64,000 bases of DNA from Acidobacteriota bacterium (GTDB lineage: Bacteria > Acidobacteriota > Thermoanaerobaculia > Gp7-AA8 > JAHWKK01), in the NCBI GenBank assembly GCA_019347945.1, contig JAHWKK010000007.1, positions 62,001 to 126,000 of the forward strand, read 5' to 3'. Each line of letters begins with the position of its first letter. Position 1 is the first letter of the stretch. The translations under genes and the position numbers were made by a program. Shown one piece after another: positions 7,992-53,416 of the stretch. Under the pieces are notes generated by a model. It searched no databases. It saw only the letters and a list, made by a program, of their open reading frames with translations, and was not told where the DNA came from.

Positions 7992-8697
7992 GAGCCGCCA
8001 GAGCCTCGCGAAGAGTCCAGGTGTCGGGGGCGAGCGTTCTCAGCTCGTCGCCGTCGAATTCGAGCAGATCGTTCAGATGGTCGATGTCGCGGCGTTCAGG
8101 AAGAAGCGCAACCGTCTGCCCTTCGGCGCGAATGCGCCCGATCGTCGCTTCGCAAACCGAGGGCCCTCCCCACGGAATGCCTTTCAGGATGTCGAGCTTC
8201 CACGCGCCGGCGTTGCAGCCGAACAGGTAGTATCCGCCATCAGTGGCGGGGCCGATCACCCAGTCGCAGGAGTCGAGCAGTGAGAGTGCGACGGAAAGGT
8301 CGTGCGCGGTCAGGGTCGGGAGGTCGGTTCCGATGGCGACGATTTTTGCGGCACGGCGGAGATAGAAGCGCTCCGTGAAAGCTGTCGACATCCGTTCGCC
8401 GAGGTCGGTTCCTTCCTGTCGTTCGACTCTCAGAGCTCCGAAGGTCTCGGCCAGCTCGGAGCCTCGGGGCTCTCCGTCGGCGGTCCAAAGGACTTCCGCG
8501 AGCGGGTCGCCCTCCGCCATCGAGCTCAGGTTGCGGAGCAGGTCACGGATCATCGCCCGCTGGAGGTCGAGAGCAGCGTCTTCTCCTGCATCGCGGGCGA
8601 AACGACTCTTGACGCTTCCCTTACGAGGCAGGCGGCTGAAGATGAGGATCCTGGCTCTGGGACCCTCGACCGTGTCGAGTCTCGCTGCGGAGCTCAT
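7984..8697 (-). CDS. TIGR04282-family glycosyltransferase-like protein
   Basis: This 237-residue protein matches the GT-A-fold family sometimes called rSAM/selenodomain-associated transferase 1. The N-terminus ILIFSRLPRKGSVKSRF resembles the nucleotide-binding start of MobA/CofC-like enzymes. GTDLPTL at about 115 and GPATDGGYYLFG at about 150 are the family metal and substrate segments. The actual substrate is unknown; arsenosugar synthesis has been proposed for some members. It overlaps nnr by 8 bases and is probably cotranscribed with it. Confidence 0.82.
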   Translation of the reverse strand: MSSAARLDTVEGPRARILIFSRLPRKGSVKSRFARDAGEDAALDLQRAMIRDLLRNLSSMAEGDPLAEVLWTADGEPRGSELAETFGALRVERQEGTDLGERMSTAFTERFYLRRAAKIVAIGTDLPTLTAHDLSVALSLLDSCDWVIGPATDGGYYLFGCNAGAWKLDILKGIPWGGPSVCEATIGRIRAEGQTVALLPERRDIDHLNDLLEFDGDELRTLAPDTWTLREALAARV

Positions 8698-9346: not shown

Positions 9347-10159
9347 ATGGTGAAGCCGCTGATCGGGCTCCTGACGGATTTCGGTGTCCGGGATTCGTAT
9401 GTCGCGCAGGTGAAGCTGGTCATTGCCGGAAGGGCGGACTGTGATCTGGTCGATCTGAGTCACGAGATCGGACCTCAGGACGTGACGGGAGCGGGCATTT
9501 TTCTTCGCGAGATCCGGTCGGTCCTCGCTCGGGCGGAGATCCCGCGGCCGGTCATCATTGTCGCCATCGTCGACCCCGGCGTCGGTACGGATCGAAAGAT
9601 CGTCTGCGTGCGGAACGGGCGAGAGACGGTGCTGGCTCCGGACAACGGCATTCTTCCGATCGCCTATGGGGAAGCGCCTGAAATAGTCCGCGAAGTGAAC
9701 AACGAACGGCTCTTTCTCCGAAGCGGGAGTCGGACGTTCCACGGAAGGGACCGGTTCGCCCCGGTTGCGGCGGCGCTCGCGGCCGGCCTCGCTCTCGAGG
9801 AGCTCGGGCCTCCGCTCGACTGGTCGAGACTCGCTCGCGTCGGTTGGCAGGATCCGGTGTACGAAGCCGAGCTCGCGCGCGGCTCGATCGTATCGACGGA
9901 CCATTTCGGAAATCTGATCACTGATATCGAGGCCGATCGGATTGCCCATCTCGCGCCTTACGAGGTGACTGTCGGGGATCGTACGATCAGGATGATCCAC
10001 GCGAACTACTCCGATGCGGGGCGGTCGAACGAGCCGTTTCTCATCATCGGATCGCGCAACACCCTGGAGATATCGGTAAACCGAGGAAGTGCGGCACAGC
10101 TCCTGCAGCCGGAGCCGTTTGACGAAATAATCGTAAGATCAACCAAACGAGAGAGTTAA
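9347..10159 (+). CDS. SAM hydrolase / SAM hydroxide adenosyltransferase (DUF62)
   Basis: Members of this family hydrolyse S-adenosylmethionine to adenosine and methionine and are related to fluorinase and chlorinase. The 270-residue protein carries LLTDFGVRDSYVAQVK at the N-terminus, VDPGVGTDRK at about 84 and APDNGIL at about 104. These bind SAM and the nucleophilic water. FHGRDRFAPVAAAL and DHFGNLITDI complete the signature. Its physiological role is not established. Its TAA stop is immediately followed by the ATG of the transpeptidase gene, so the two are cotranscribed. Confidence 0.9.
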   Translation: MVKPLIGLLTDFGVRDSYVAQVKLVIAGRADCDLVDLSHEIGPQDVTGAGIFLREIRSVLARAEIPRPVIIVAIVDPGVGTDRKIVCVRNGRETVLAPDNGILPIAYGEAPEIVREVNNERLFLRSGSRTFHGRDRFAPVAAALAAGLALEELGPPLDWSRLARVGWQDPVYEAELARGSIVSTDHFGNLITDIEADRIAHLAPYEVTVGDRTIRMIHANYSDAGRSNEPFLIIGSRNTLEISVNRGSAAQLLQPEPFDEIIVRSTKRES

Positions 10160-45539: not shown

Positions 45540-47411
45540 TTGAGACGAGTCGTCGTCGGAACGGCCGGCCATATCGATCACGGGAAGACGGCGCTGGTCG
45601 GGGCGCTGACCGGGATCGATACCGACAGGCTCCCCGAGGAAAAACGGCGCGGGATCACGATCGACCTCGGGTTTGCGCGTTTGCTCGCCGATGACGTGCA
45701 GTTGAGCCTGATCGACGTCCCCGGCCACGAGCGGTTCGTCCGAAACATGCTCGCCGGCGCCTCGGGGATCGATGCGGTGCTGCTCGTCGTCGCAGCGGAC
45801 GAGTCGGTGGCACCGCAGACCGTGGAGCATTTCGAGATCTGCCGGCTGCTCGGGGTGGAGCGAGGGGTCATCGCAATCACCAAGGCGGACAGGGCGACCG
45901 CGGACATGATCGAGCTCGTACAGCTCGAGCTCGCTGAGCTCGTCGCCGGCACTCCGCTCGAAAGCGCGCCGGTGATCGTGACGAGCTCGAAGGAAGGGCG
46001 CGGCATCGAACAATTGAGGGAGGAGCTCATTCGTCTGGTTCCCCCGGAGGAGGCGGAGACGGATGATCGCGTCTTCCGGCTCCCTGTGGATCGAGCCTTC
46101 ACGATCCGTGGATTCGGAACCGTCGTGACCGGTACGGTCGCGTCGGGCTCGTTTGCCGCGGGATCGAACCTCGTCGTCATGCCGGAGGCGCTTCAGTCGA
46201 GGGTCCGCCGGATCGAGATTCACGGCTCCGAGCGCGACCGCGCGGTTGCGGGGGACCGGGCCTCGCTGAATCTTCCCGACCTGGAGGTTCGCGATGTTCA
46301 ACGGGGAGTACAGCTCGTCGAGCCGGGAACGCTGCGGCCATCGCGTCTTCTGACCGTCGAGCTCGACCTCCTCCCGGCTGCGGCAGCTCTCAAAGACGGC
46401 GTCCGGGTCCGCGTTCATCATTTGACGATCGAGGCGATCGGGCGCGTGCGGTTGCGCGCGAAGAAGCGGCTCGAGCCCGGGGAGAGAGAGATCGCCCGGA
46501 TCCATCTCGACCGGCCGGTGACCGCGGTCGCAGGCGACCGGTTCGTGATCCGGACGTACTCTCCCGCACGGACCATTGGTGGGGGAGTGATCCTCGATCC
46601 GCATTTGCCGCGGGGAGGGCGGAAGTTCTCGGTCGCGGACGTTCGTCAGCTCGCGGGCGCATCGGTCGTGGAGAGAGCCGGATGGATGGCGCGAAGAATG
46701 GGAGCGCGCGGAATCACGCTCGAGGATCTCGTTGCGGTGACCGGCCTCAAGCGCGATCGCATCGGGCGGGAGCTCGCTCCGGGCGGAATGCTGATCCCGA
46801 TCGGCGACCGGTGGCTCGATCCGGGCGCCATCGACGATCTCGACGCGCGTGTCGTGAAAAGCCTCGAGGAGTTCTTCGCGTCGACTCCGCTCTCGACCGG
46901 AATGCCGCGCCGCGAGCTCGTTCAGAAGACCTTTCCCGCGGGTCTCGCCGTGGACGCCGGGGCCGCGCTTCTCGAGCGGCTCCGTCAGCGAGGACGCATC
47001 ACGATCGAGGGGGATGTCGTCGATCTGCCGGGTCGCGAGAAGCGTCCGGAGGGCGTGGAGGGATCGATCGCGGACCGGGTGGAGGCGTGCTTTTCGGATG
47101 CCGGGCTGGCCCCTCCGGGTCTGCGCGAGGTCCAGGACGAGGTGGGCCACAAGCCGAAAGTCGTTGAAGGCGTTCTCGGGTTTCTTCTGAAGGAAGGGAC
47201 GCTCGTCCGGCTCGCCGACGGTCTCTGGGTACACCGCGACGCTCTCGATTCGGCCGCCGCCAGGGTCCGGGAGCACCGGGGAGAAACGCACGACGTCGCC
47301 TGGTTCAAGGACCTGTTCGGTCTGACGCGCAAGGTCGGCATCCCGTTGCTCGAATGGTTCGACGCGAACGGGGTGACGAAGCGCGTCGGGGATCAGCGCA
47401 CGATCCTGTAG
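45540..47411 (+). CDS. selB: Selenocysteine-specific elongation factor SelB
   Basis: SelB brings Sec-tRNA to UGA codons by binding a SECIS hairpin. The GTPase domain has [11 protein letters not shown] (8-18), DVPGHERFV and TKAD. Two EF-Tu-like beta domains follow, with [22 protein letters not shown]. Then come tandem winged helices that end [32 protein letters not shown], typical of SelB. The length of 623 residues is normal. The start is TTG 45540. No selA, selD, tRNA-Sec or obvious selenoprotein lies in the window. Confidence 0.93.
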
Positions 47412-49072: not shown

Positions 49073-49180
49073 CGCTTTTCGCCTTCGGAATGGAAACTTT
49101 CGTAACATCTCTCCACCAGGAGCAGAATGCGTTTGAGCCCGGAAATACGCGAGGAACCGAAAAACGAAGGTGTGGCCCTC
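49073..49180 (+). repeat. Long repeat A, left copy
   Basis: About 108 bases here match 51777-51880 in the same orientation, sharing CGGAATGGAAACTTTCGT, TCTCT, AGAATGCGTTTGAGCCCG, AACCGA and GAAGGTGTGGCCC. It lies in the 385-base gap between the protease and the methyltransferase gene. That gap otherwise holds a TCATCCCGACCGAGGGATC stretch like other dispersed repeats, and no gene. Confidence 0.7.
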
Positions 49181-49228
49181 ACTTCCGAGGGTATGACCGT
49201 CAATTTCCCCCAATTTCCCAATTTCCGG

Positions 49229-50203
49229 TCAAGCAGAGCCGCGCTTCCGGCAAAGAAGCACGGCGTAAAGTGGTTTCGTGATTTCTCCCGACGCGACCAG
49301 CGCCTTTTCTTTTTCGATCAGGCGGCGTATCAAAGGTTCACTTTCCGGCTTCAGCAGCTCAGCGCCGTTGAGACAGCAGAAGAGCGGGTGCAGGAGATTT
49401 CCCCAGTAGGGCTTGTAGTGAACGATTTCGAAGCGTTCGCGCAAAGCGGGAATGATCCGTGACGATCGAATCATTTCCGACGGATCCTCGAAGACCACGG
49501 GCGGTTTCGCCGGACGCAGCTTGAGTCGGTCATCCAACCTGTCGAATTCTTCGCGAACGGGTTTCATGTCCTCGTCCGTCCATTCGTCGCGCGAGGGCCC
49601 CACGAACTCATCGACATAGACGAGGCCGTGAGGTTTCAGCGACTTCTCGACCTCGGCGAGCAGCCGGTCAGGATCAGAAACGTGATGCAGAGATCCGTGG
49701 AAAAAGACGATGTCGTATCGATCGGGCGGCAACACGATTGAGTTGAAATCCGCCCGGCGATATCGAATGGCCCGGGCGCCTTCCTTGCGCGCGAGCTTTC
49801 TTGCCTTTTTCAGAGAAGCAGGCGAAATGTCGAAGGCCTCCATGCGCTCACAGATCCGTTGCTTGTAAACCACGTCCCGCTCGAGCTCACCCGTGCCGCA
49901 ACCCACCGACAGCCCCAGCTTCAGAGGATGGTAAGCCCAACCGGCTTTCAATCCCTGAGTCGGATGAAGCCACGAAACGCCCGTAACCAGGCAGTTCACG
50001 TACTGGGAGATCAGCGGGTGCTGGGTCCAGTAAACAGATTCGGTCTGTTGCTGCTCATTCCAATGACGAGCCGCAATGGATTCCACGTTGTCCGCAGGCC
50101 CGAGGACTTCGCGCTTCCAGCGGCGGATGATCTCCGGGACGTACTTGCCGACCCCGCTGGCGCGTATCGCAGAGTTCAGGCCGCTGACAATCTGCTCACG
50201 CAT
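49229..50203 (-). CDS. Class I SAM-dependent methyltransferase
   Basis: The 324-residue protein has the Rossmann methyltransferase core: motif I LSVGCGTGELE at about 97-107, an acidic end of strand 2 (AFDIS), RRADFNSI and IVFFHGSLHHVSDPDRLL. A helical C-terminal part follows. This is the Methyltransf_11/25 type; the substrate is unknown and the N-terminal helical region (about 1-90) is not informative. It sits between repeat copies and the RAYT gene, so it could be accessory cargo. Confidence 0.82.
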   Translation of the reverse strand: MREQIVSGLNSAIRASGVGKYVPEIIRRWKREVLGPADNVESIAARHWNEQQQTESVYWTQHPLISQYVNCLVTGVSWLHPTQGLKAGWAYHPLKLGLSVGCGTGELERDVVYKQRICERMEAFDISPASLKKARKLARKEGARAIRYRRADFNSIVLPPDRYDIVFFHGSLHHVSDPDRLLAEVEKSLKPHGLVYVDEFVGPSRDEWTDEDMKPVREEFDRLDDRLKLRPAKPPVVFEDPSEMIRSSRIIPALRERFEIVHYKPYWGNLLHPLFCCLNGAELLKPESEPLIRRLIEKEKALVASGEITKPLYAVLLCRKRGSA

Positions 50204-50242
50204 TCCGAGTTGGCCTCACAGCCCCGCATTTTACCCTCGCGC

Positions 50243-50265
50243 GGTCGATCGAGTCGGGATCGACC
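50243..50265. repeat. 8-bp inverted repeat upstream of the methyltransferase gene
   Basis: GGTCGATC (50243-50250) and GATCGACC (50258-50265) flank seven bases, about 40-60 bases upstream of the methyltransferase start. It could be an operator or part of the repeat cluster. Confidence 0.4.
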
Positions 50266-50270
50266 GGGTC

Positions 50271-50634
50271 GCACCTTCGTTATTCGGTTCAGTCGCGCGA
50301 ATGTAACCCTCGAAGTGCTTCACGGGGAACCGAGCCGTGGCGCGGGGAGAGAGGGCCAGACCTTCGGGAGAGAGGGCCAGACCTTCGTTATTCGGTTCAG
50401 TCACGCGAATGTGACCGTCGAAGTGCTTCACAGAAACCGATCCGGTCCTAGAATCGTCGCTTGTTGCTCCTGAGAGCCCCGAGAAGGGCGTGGAGAGAGG
50501 GCCAGACCTTCGTTATTCGGGGAGAGAGGGCCAGACCTTCGTTATTCGGTTCAGTCACGCGAATGTGACCGTCGAAGTGCTTCACAGAAACCGATTCGGT
50601 CCAGAATCGTCGCTTGTTGCTCGTGAGAGCCCCC
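50271..50634 (-). repeat. Cluster of REP-like tandem repeats downstream of the RAYT gene
   Basis: Two near-identical units of about 115 bases start at 50366 and 50520 (154-base period). Each reads GGGAGAGAGGGCCAGACC, then TTCGTTATTCGGTTCAG, GTCAC-6-GTGAC, GAAGTGCTTC and GAATCGTCGCTTGTTGCTC. Shorter pieces are at 50271-50327, 50345-50365 and 50491-50519. GTCAC/GTGAC and GAAG/CTTC are small inverted repeats. On the minus strand the core AACGAAGGTCTGGCCCTC matches the GAAGGTGTGGCCC core near 49168 and 51869. No gene lies in 50204-50717. Confidence 0.75.
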
Positions 50635-50717
50635 AAAAGTGGTGTACGAGGGCCGGGCGACTCAGTGCAGCGTCGAGGATGCCCAGGTCAGGCACAGCTC
50701 GACAGTGGCGAGACGAT

Positions 50718-51722
50718 TCAGAACGGCTGTCGGATGAGAACCTCGGGCGGCGGAAGGGGTGGGGCATGCGCGCGGAGGGTCGTGATGCATGAATCGATCA
50801 GATGGGCGAGGCCAGGGATCCGGTTTCTGTCCGTTTCCACCCGGCGGACGAGCGTCGAAACGTGCCCATAGCTCCGCAGCCCGAGAAGCGCCGCGATTTC
50901 GCGGAGCCGGCTGAGCGACTCGATCCTGGCCAGATGCGCGATGACCGCCCTTCCGGGATGCCCGCGCGTCGTGCGGATCTCGTCGAGGTCCGCATCCATC
51001 ATCGCGGCCGCGGTCTCGGCCGTTTCCACGAGCTTGGGCCGGTCGACGTTGCGCTGCGGTGAGGGATGCTCGGTCGAGCGTGGCTCGGCGTCGATGAGCG
51101 TCTGCACTTTCGCGATGAACTCGGCTGATCCGAGGTAGATCTGGCCTTTGAGATGACTCCAGATCGATTCGTCGGACCCGACCTTGCGCTGCACGAACTC
51201 TCGATACGCATTCCGGGCCTCAGGCAGATCCCGATGGAAGTGGCGAACGATCGAGTCGGAGAGCCACCACGGCGCCCGCTCGAGCCCCGCACTCGCACGG
51301 TAACTCGACCACCGGTAGTCCTCGGGGCGCTCGACCATCCCGGCCCGCACGGGATTGAGAACGACGTAGCGCGCCGCCTCGAGCATCCAGGTTGCCTCGT
51401 CGACCAGATGCGCCTTGAACCGTCCCTGAAAGAGATGTCCGCATCGGTCGTACTTTCGGTTGGAATCCTGCGCGTAGCGCTGGTTGAGCCGCTGCATTCC
51501 GCGTGACAGCGTCGGCTCGGGTGTGGAGAGGAGGATGTGGTAGTGGTTGCCCATCAGGACCCAGGCGTGGATGCGCCAGTTGAAGAGCGCGACGACTCCG
51601 GCGAGGATGCCGAGAAACGACTCGCGGTCGTCATCATCGTGGAAGATCATCTCGCGGTTGTTCCCGCGCGATGTGACGTGCCACAGAGCGCCACGATGTT
51701 CGAGTCTGAGCGGTCGAGCCAT
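50718..51722 (-). CDS. REP-associated tyrosine transposase (RAYT, IS200-like Y1 HUH family)
   Basis: From ATG 51722 (MARPLRLEHRGALWHVTSRGN) the protein has 334 residues. The HUH metal motif is H60-Y-H62 in MGNHYHIL, and Tyr119 in RYVVLNPVRAG is the likely nucleophile; YRWSSY follows. The C-terminal third holds a DnaA-like or other HTH (ESLSRLREIAALLGLRSYGHVSTLVRRVE), seen in larger members of the group. The gene is single and flanked by short repeats in opposite orientation, as in REP/RAYT systems. An upstream in-frame extension to 52115 reads through repeats and is rejected. Confidence 0.87.
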   Translation of the reverse strand: MARPLRLEHRGALWHVTSRGNNREMIFHDDDDRESFLGILAGVVALFNWRIHAWVLMGNHYHILLSTPEPTLSRGMQRLNQRYAQDSNRKYDRCGHLFQGRFKAHLVDEATWMLEAARYVVLNPVRAGMVERPEDYRWSSYRASAGLERAPWWLSDSIVRHFHRDLPEARNAYREFVQRKVGSDESIWSHLKGQIYLGSAEFIAKVQTLIDAEPRSTEHPSPQRNVDRPKLVETAETAAAMMDADLDEIRTTRGHPGRAVIAHLARIESLSRLREIAALLGLRSYGHVSTLVRRVETDRNRIPGLAHLIDSCITTLRAHAPPLPPPEVLIRQPF

Positions 51723-51776
51723 GGAGAAACCATCCCTCGGTGAAAGGAAAAAAGTCCAACCGTTGACGGGAGTGGT

Positions 51777-51960
51777 TGCTTTTCTCCCTCGGAATGGAAA
51801 CTTTCGTGACGTCTCTCTACGAGGGTTAGAATGCGTTTGAGCCCGAAATGCATCTCGAACCGACAATCGAAGGTGTGGCCCCCAATTCGCCGCAATTCGC
51901 CGAAGGTGTGGCCCCCAATTCGCCCCAATTCTCAATTGAAGGTGTGGCCCCAATTCTGAC
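51777..51960 (+). repeat. Long repeat A, right copy, followed by three GAAGGTGTGGCCCC repeats
   Basis: 51777-51880 repeats 49073-49180. GAAGGTGTGGCCCC then recurs at 51869, 51902 and 51938, each followed by AATTC-containing stretches (33 and 36 bases apart). This lies 55 bases upstream of the RAYT start and reads opposite to the cluster at 50271-50634. No gene is seen in 51723-51987. Confidence 0.72.
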
Positions 51961-51987: not shown

Positions 51988-52246
51988 ATGCCCTCAGAGA
52001 GAAAACTCGTGCGGAAGATCCTTGCCGGAGCATCTGATTCGAATATCCGGTTTGATGAACTGCGTTCTCTCCTGAAGCGGCTCGGTTTCAGCGAGCGAAT
52101 TCGAGGCGGCATCACATTTTGCGAGAGATGGCGTTGCGGAGATCCTGAACCTGCAGCCGCGACGCGGAAGAGCGAAGGACTATCAGGTCAAACAGACGCG
52201 CGCCGTTCTGCTGAAGTACGGACTCGGTCGGAGAGGAACACGATGA
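51988..52246 (+). pseudogene. hicA: HicA toxin gene broken by a frameshift
   Basis: The first about 41 codons encode a HicA N-terminus (LVRKILAGASDSNIRFDELRSLLKRLGFSERIRGG). The rest of HicA continues in another frame from about 52110: FARDGVAEILNLQPRRGRAKDYQ, then VKQTRAVLLKYGLG, and a TGA at 52244-52246 that overlaps the hicB ATG. The shift lies near 52101-52122, where the catalytic GSHH/GSH motif should be. As it stands, the first frame runs on in phase through hicB. A sequencing error could also explain it. Confidence 0.75.
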
Positions 52247-52461
52247 GTGAGACTCCGAAGTACGAGATGATCATCTACTGGAGCGAGACCGACGATGCTT
52301 TCATCGTCGAGGTTCCCGAGCTGTCGGGTTGTATGGCGGATGGGGCGACGTACGAGGAGGCCGTCAGCAATGCGCAAATCGTGATCGCAGAGTGGCTCGA
52401 GACGGCTCGTGAGCTCGGACGAGACATTCCAGCTCCTCGGGGTCGTCTGATGTATGCCTAG
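52243..52461 (+). CDS. hicB: HicB-type antitoxin
   Basis: The 72-residue protein is a single HicB domain: YEMIIYWSETDDAFIVEVPELSGCMADGATYEEAVSNAQ is split across it, followed by WLETARELGRDIPAP. It lacks the extra DNA-binding domain of longer HicB proteins. The ATG at 52243 overlaps the stop of the hicA reading frame (ATGA), the normal toxin-first arrangement. The same frame is open upstream into the hicA N-terminus because of the frameshift, which could yield a 157-residue fusion. Confidence 0.85.
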   Translation: MSETPKYEMIIYWSETDDAFIVEVPELSGCMADGATYEEAVSNAQIVIAEWLETARELGRDIPAPRGRLMYA

Positions 52462-52802
52462 CGAAGCGTTCCGCAGTGAGAGTCATACCCGCCCGCGGTT
52501 AAGCGAAAACTCGCATCCGGGCCTCGAAACCGGGTGAATCTGAACAACGTCAGGCGAGCCAGAAAGTTAGGCCGAAATCGCGTCGGACCAACGCGAACAA
52601 CATCTTCAGGTGGTATCGGGCGTCGGAGGGGCGGTACACGCAAGCGGATCCATTCAGGTTGGAGGTAGGGAAACAGCCACACCGGGTCCGGGCAATCTGG
52701 TGGGAAATGGTCTCTGTGACGCTCCACCGCCAGACCCGCTTCCTCCAGGATTCGTGGAAACGCAAGTCCCAGATTGCGGTCGGTGAAGAACGTGAAGTTC
52801 AC
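52458..52802 (-). pseudogene. Remnant of a VapC45-like PIN-domain toxin
   Basis: GTG at 52802 overlaps the stop of the DUF433 gene (GTGA), as in intact pairs. The first about 43 residues (FTFFTDRNLGLAFP, EEAGLAVERHRDHFP, PDCPDPVWL) look like the start of the VapC45/DUF5615-like PIN family, with the first acidic site in TDRNLG. The remaining 70 residues do not resemble the family and appear to be out of frame or replaced. The protein is probably not functional. Confidence 0.6.
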
Positions 52803-53416
52803 GCAGAGCGCTCGAAGATGATCGCCTCTTCGACGGCTTCGGAGCTGATCTCGTAGTCAGCCGCAACCTCATCAATACTTTCACCCGCATCGATCCGATC
52901 GAGCAGTGTGCGGGTGGAAATGAAGGCGCGGCTGATTACCGGCCTACCAAAAGAGATCTCAGGATCGATCAGAATCGGCTTTGCGTCGATCTGCTCCGCA
53001 ACCATGAATGGATAGAGACGAACGGGGAGACGCAACTCGCCCCACTCGACCCGCTGCAGATGAGTGTCAAACATCCGGCGCATCGCGAGCTGTCCCGACG
53101 CGGACAGGTTGATGAGCCCTCCGTATCGATCGAGGAAAATCTCACCCCCAGCGGTGCAGAGCTCCTGGCGAAGCAGGAGATTCTCGATGGAAAGCTCCTT
53201 CTCTGCCCACGACAGCGCCTGGCGAACAGCCACTAATGGGACGCCATGTTCCGTGCGGAGCGATCGCAAAACCGGGGCTTCGATCAGATTTGCGAACGAA
53301 AGCGTCGGAGGCCGCCGACGGGCCGGTCTGAGAACCGGCTGAAACTCCGCTTTTCCCTGCGTCGTCTCGTACTGCCGACCGATGAACCACGACGAGCCAC
53401 CAGCCGGCCAGAAAGC
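52799..53416 (-). pseudogene. DUF433 (VapB45-like) antitoxin, 5' truncated
   Basis: The C-terminal DUF433 part is clear: KPILIDPEISFGRPVISR, STRTLLDRIDAGESIDEVA and YEISSEAVEEAI. Upstream the same frame holds the middle of the family (RPPTLSFANLIEAPVLRSLR, EHGVPLVAVRQAL). It ends at an in-frame TAA (53417-53419) after WFIGRQYETTQGK, so the N-terminal helix-turn-helix is missing. A TTG at 53269 could start a 156-residue fragment. It pairs with the toxin remnant next to it. Confidence 0.7.

Follow-up and report, generated by a model that had tools for sequence, protein, structure and literature searches.

The 64,000-nucleotide stretch of Acidobacteriota DNA analyzed here, referred to below as the window (positions 62001-126000 of contig C7 in genome G000, an assembly of 3.72 Mb in 49 contigs), probably carries a transposable element of about 1.37 kb, in which the gene for a RAYT-like transposase lies between two unlike ends with a common outer inverted repeat. 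The gene and its ends are present in many copies at unrelated sites of the same genome, and gene-less derivatives composed of the two ends also exist. RAYT-like genes flanked by long terminal inverted repeats (TIRs) have been named TIRYTs, and the corresponding units TIRtrons (Di Nocera et al. 2013, PMC3733652); the element fits this class, members of which have been described in Acidobacteria and in other phyla.

An earlier note on this DNA had described a RAYT gene with intact HUH and tyrosine motifs, enclosed by repeats of opposite orientation, and both observations hold. The gene (50718-51722, minus strand) encodes N59-H-Y-H62 and Y119-V-V-L-N-P. The repeat units are on the minus strand to its left and on the plus strand to its right, facing outward and sharing GAAGGTSTGRCCC. 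The exact core GAAGGTSTGGCCC is found eight times in the window, at 49166 (plus), 50353, 50374, 50499 and 50528 (minus), and 51869, 51902 and 51938 (plus); in shuffled sequence, matches with up to one mismatch average 0.14 with a maximum of 1. Throughout the genome, one type of end (A) lies 5' of the gene and of fragments that come from its 5' part, and the other type (B) accompanies the 3' side of the gene and 3' gene fragments; the element limits are thus placed at approximately 50520-51889, with tandem copies of the ends outside. The features of the locus are as follows.

50520-51889, minus strand: TIRtron unit (B end, transposase gene and A end), about 1.37 kb, from alignments of A and B copies and a genome search with the element
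50718-51722, minus strand: TIRYT or REP-associated tyrosine transposase gene, 334 amino acids, from Pfam, NCBIfam, PDB sequence, an AlphaFold2 model and fold comparison
51537-51548, minus strand: HUH motif NHYH, residues 59-62, from an alignment in which N59, H60 and H62 are invariant
51366-51368, minus strand: catalytic tyrosine Y119 in YVVLNP (the class-2 Y---NP signature), from the alignment and the motif table of PMC6006769
51788-51889, plus strand: A end on the 5' side of the gene, core 51869-51881 plus outer tail, from 17 aligned copies and tail counts
51890-51960, plus strand: incomplete A-terminus copies in tandem, with cores at 51902 and 51938
50520-50630, minus strand: B end on the 3' side of the gene, core 50528-50540, from 14 aligned copies
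50266-50518, minus strand: tandem array of extra B ends, including a full copy at 50374-50477
50353-50365 and 50499-50511, minus strand: partial B cores in this array
50266-50336, minus strand: degenerate B copy in this array
49085-49178, plus strand: solo A end, core 49166-49178, from the genome search with the element and the A-end alignment

The span 49073-51960 therefore holds one full element and one solo end, the latter located beyond a methyltransferase gene; no B partner was found for this solo A end. The methyltransferase gene was considered as cargo and rejected: it does not belong to the element and is flanked by the outward-facing side of the solo A end on one side and that of the array of B ends on the other. 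On the other side, directly outside the A-end array, is a HicA/HicB-like pair (51988-52461), in which a HicA-like frame that looks frameshifted is followed by a HicB-like antitoxin gene at 52243-52461 (PF15919). A gene whose PIN match falls slightly short of the Pfam threshold adjoins a DUF433 gene (52458-53269), and the two are likely a further toxin-antitoxin pair. The window also contains a SelB selenocysteine elongation factor gene (45540-47411); no tRNA or Rfam family, and hence no selC, was found within the 64 kb.

The protein is matched by Pfam Y1_Tnp (E-value 3.4e-9) and, with 83.9 bits against a cut-off of 80, by the NCBIfam family REP_Tyr_transpos (NF047646, REP-associated tyrosine transposase); its nearest named relatives are in Thermoanaerobaculia MAGs. 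It has the motifs of class-2 Y1 transposases, NHYH, LFQ (F/W-Q) and YVVLNP (Y---NP), and residues N59, H60, H62, Y119, N123 and P124 are invariant in an alignment of 14 relatives. In an AlphaFold2 model (mean pLDDT 83), residues 1-188 resemble E. coli TnpA-REP (4er8, Z-score 17.7), and residues 229-321 are predicted to fold like DNA-binding domain IV of DnaA (3pvp, Z-score 15.4; 1j1v, Z-score 14.8). This second domain is seen by fold comparison only: Pfam gives no match when the C-terminal half of the window protein is searched alone, and it recognizes Bac_DnaA_C in 4 of the 14 aligned relatives. DnaA_C/HTH tails and the absence of REPs characterize TnpA-Y1 subclass 2.1 (group 1 of Bertels), to which most TIRYT examples belong (Quentin et al. 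2018, PMC6006769).

The repeat is numerous in the genome and also occurs away from this locus. A whole-genome pattern search gives 20 occurrences of the exact core, and the degenerate core CGAAGGTSTGRCC has 62 exact matches in 3.7 Mb, compared with 2 for a reversed control pattern. The contexts of 61 degenerate cores resolve into two distinct repeats of about 100 nt, A (CTCGGAATGGAAACTTTCGTGACA...CTCCACGAGGAGTAGAATG...) and B (CGCTCTCACGAGCAACAAGCGACGAT...GGTCAGATTCGCGCGACTGAACCGAATAA...), which are alike only in their outer 33 nt or so, as an inverted repeat that reads inwards roughly as GGNANWGRGGGYCASACCTTCGTTWTTCGRTTC. Both terminate in (A/T)AACGAAGGTSTGRCCC, both tails resemble YC[AT]NTNCC (column counts over 46 ends), and conservation fades a few bases past the core when the 17 A ends and the 14 B ends are aligned. 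The GGGGWSAS motif is frequent in TIRtrons, a class with members in Acidobacteria, and is found in many but not all TIRYTs (PMC3733652). The window copy has GGGGCCAC, in which the fifth base departs from this motif, many other copies in the genome have GGGGTCAC, which fits it, and so does the GGGGTCA[GC] of relatives. A text search of the literature for GGGGTCAG returned nothing relevant.

One alternative is a classical REP/RAYT system (REPtron), in which a domesticated, single-copy transposase spreads short hairpin REPs while itself remaining stationary. The NCBIfam name of the protein suggests this, as do the inverted cognate repeats on both sides of the gene and the solo and paired repeats scattered over the genome; the catalytic fold, the repeats around the gene and the dispersed repeats are all shared with the REP/RAYT systems of E. 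coli and Pseudomonas. The ends, however, are not REPs. The GT[AG]G foot of a REP hairpin (GTAG or GTGG) is absent from A and B in all 61 contexts and in the 17 A and 14 B aligned ends, neither end folds better than its shuffles on either strand (z from -0.4 to +1.6), and covariation is almost nil in both alignments, so that an identification of the ends as REP hairpins was rejected. They are also about 100 nt long and unlike each other, the protein has the additional DnaA-domain-IV-like domain, and the gene is copied along with its ends (17 gene pieces, about 50 DNA pieces), whereas TnpA-REP/RAYT genes are described as usually single-copy, domesticated and without evidence of mobility (PMC8266576, PMC6006769). 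We consider this alternative unlikely, and TIRtrons, rather than the gammaproteobacterial REP/RAYT systems invoked in the earlier note, are the appropriate comparison. That note's proposal of a lineage-specific repeat family mobilized by the protein stands insofar as the family is genome-wide, while its members are the TIRs of an IS-like unit rather than REPs.

A DNA search with the 1383-bp element finds about 50 matching pieces in the genome, and a protein-level search finds 17 gene pieces. In the assembly, only the window copy is complete, and two further long copies are interrupted by contig ends. Joining contig ends to obtain a second complete copy was attempted and rejected, as there is no exact overlap and the best pair, 94% identical over 90 nt, represents two different copies. 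Since seven contig ends fall within element copies (contigs C1, C3, C4, C23 and C38), the assembly being broken at these repeats, there are probably more long copies than can be seen.

Spread of the gene by segmental duplication or repeated horizontal gain, rather than transposition, would be consistent with copies that are 81-100% identical at the protein level and mostly truncated. Against it, homology stops at defined outer ends, beyond which the flanks are unrelated between loci (apart from loci in a common array, additional end copies and a single match of 62 nt that two loci share), and gene-less units recur; we therefore regard it as improbable. The head-to-head pairing anticipated for the repeats is found in these short gene-less units, where a B end is joined to an A end within 100-230 nt (C44:1280-1507, C44:5524-5748, C4:200171-200374 and C4:198782-198885). 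When ungapped gene pieces are compared with the window gene, dN/dS is mostly 0.04-0.14 at dS mostly 0.2-0.37; the exceptions are a value of 0.28 in one 53-codon piece and three very short pieces with no non-synonymous difference. Most gene copies have thus evolved under strong purifying selection, indicating that most descend from genes that were functional for most of their history. The pattern is that of an autonomous element with shortened offspring, and constitutes good circumstantial evidence that the TIRYT moves together with its gene. We infer that the window transposase does the moving of the A and B copies.

Directly outside the ends there are often locus-specific tandem repeats, such as CTCTGTACC three times, CTCGCACC five times and a run of partial ends at C1:866-1101. 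Many of these stutter units have a common outer end and a variable start. Comparing 60 nt on each side of 43 innermost cores, direct repeats of at least 8 nt are found outside in 15 cases and inside in 1 (Fisher p 1.4e-4). The ends of relatives show the same tendency, as 22 of 58 have such repeats on the outside and 9 of 58 on the inside (p 0.011); with a stricter motif in relatives, which leaves 11 ends, there is no stutter signal. Tandem stutter is not wholly new, because large REP clusters reiterated in tandem together with flanking DNA were seen by Di Nocera et al. (PMC3733652). TnpA-REP enzymes cleave close to REPs, at a CT or CA dinucleotide (PMC8266576); the ends studied here have these dinucleotides shortly after TGRCCC.

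A possible mechanism can be outlined. Working on single-stranded DNA, the HUH/Tyr domain would introduce a nick at the outer terminus of every TIR, the C-terminal domain resembling DnaA domain IV may bind DNA or target the replication fork, and strands of the element would be excised, or copied, into new sites. The stutters outside the ends might then arise by polymerase slippage or template switching at the terminus nick, although this does not fully explain them.

Related genes show a similar arrangement. For 56 of them (a set that includes a few duplicate loci and one locus with runs of N), inverted matches between upstream and downstream flanks have a median score of 15.5, versus 10 for mispaired flanks with a 95th percentile of 12. 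Many of the relatives' repeats are nearly perfect over 20-45 nt and begin (T)GGGG[TC]CA[GC], with a lineage-specific inner part, so that TIRs unrelated to GTAG REPs flank the gene in many relatives just as the A and B ends do here. Across 41 genomes, the numbers of cores and RAYTs are loosely correlated (Spearman 0.44, p 0.004; 0.40, p 0.012 without the genome of the window; -0.16 for the reversed-pattern control), while a comparison of genomes with and without a RAYT falls short of significance (p 0.09), which would be expected of an inner core that varies between lineages. Because of this difference between lineages, the occurrence of repeats without any RAYT is only loosely probed by these counts. 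Similar gene copies also exist within relatives, with identities of 86-89% in G001, 94% in G004 and 96% in G006.

The relatives G004, G006 and G009 belong to one genus. G004 has about 30 sites with a cognate TIR unit of about 95 nt, similar to the units on either side of two of its TIRYT genes; neither the unit nor, in a DNA search, a close counterpart of those two genes was found in G006 and G009. At GGGGTCAGACC, one G004 TIR disrupts the 3' end of a gene, and the same gene is intact in G006. Another unit separates two convergent genes; in G009 both genes are present, but the spacer between them is short and the unit is missing, a difference that could stem from a loss in G009 instead of a gain in G004. 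For whole gene-bearing G004 TIRtrons there is no clean empty site, and the one readable boundary is that of the TIR in the gene intact in G006; for locus L119, no co-linear site was found in G004 or G009.

Two further features of the G004 units are recorded here. They often run on into locus-specific complementary flanks (for example, GAGTGGAAG / CTTCCAC and GGTATG / CATACC), as if the unit had inserted into, or created, an inverted repeat; the loci examined were L134:807-906, 1973-2071, 2252-2352, 8387-8486 and 9554-9653, L186, L187 and L188. In addition, a TIR unit is situated inside a TIRYT reading frame, after the residues REFVEG and without a stop (L158:1146-2690; L134:9201-9300), similar to what has been reported for REPs inserted within genes of subclass 2.4.

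That the TIRs are moved by another transposase, with the TIRYT gene as a passenger, is very improbable. The genome does have other Y1 genes, for example on C8 and C5, one of which could act instead, but the gene of each TIRYT lineage is bounded on either side by a matching TIR specific to that lineage, the G004 unit is missing from the two congeners in which a DNA search found no close counterparts of its genes, and the gene copies were under purifying selection.

Placed among known systems, the element shares with TIRtrons a class-2 Y1 transposase with NHYH and Y---NP and a DnaA_C-like C-terminus, a gene between TIRs that begin GGGG..CA., and TIR families found as singles, dimers and clusters. 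It differs in that one element, including its gene, is present in many copies, compared with an average of 1.9 copies per genome, at 49% identity, in subclass 2.1 (PMC6006769), in having ends of about 100 nt that are unlike each other, with only the outer part in common, in the GGGGCCAC of the window copy where GGGGWSAS would stand, and in a strong tail stutter. The IS200/IS605 family (IS608, ISDra2) has in common with it the HUH/Y1 fold, several gene-bearing copies and a presumed single-stranded DNA route. Membership in that family was rejected, however: a 334-residue protein with Y119---N123-P124 and a second, C-terminal domain contrasts with a core-only protein with Y---Q, the ends are terminal inverted repeats rather than subterminal hairpins, and there is no TnpB. 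Bacterial MITEs and REPINs are likewise short, gene-less, bounded by two inverted ends and cognate to a transposase gene; the B+A pairs of 100-230 nt differ from them in their unlike arms, and the palindromic G004 units of about 95 nt are closer to REPINs.

This kind of element is already known, if little-studied; what is unusual here is the copy number. In the literature searched, the name TIRYT is used in two papers only, and no report of a TIRYT moving was found. The finding is of value because it provides evidence for the spread of a TIRYT along with its gene, something described as unseen for TnpA-REP (PMC8266576). More broadly, it is conceivable, at somewhat less than even chances, that TIRYTs are an autonomous rather than domesticated branch of Y1 transposable elements, moving with their own gene, reaching replication forks through the DnaA-IV-like tail and leaving terminus stutters as a signature. 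G000 provides a TIRtron that has many copies, well-defined ends, gene-less derivatives and a protein shaped by selection, and G004, G006 and G009 provide insertion differences within one genus; together, they make the question of whether relatives of RAYTs are still transposons directly testable.
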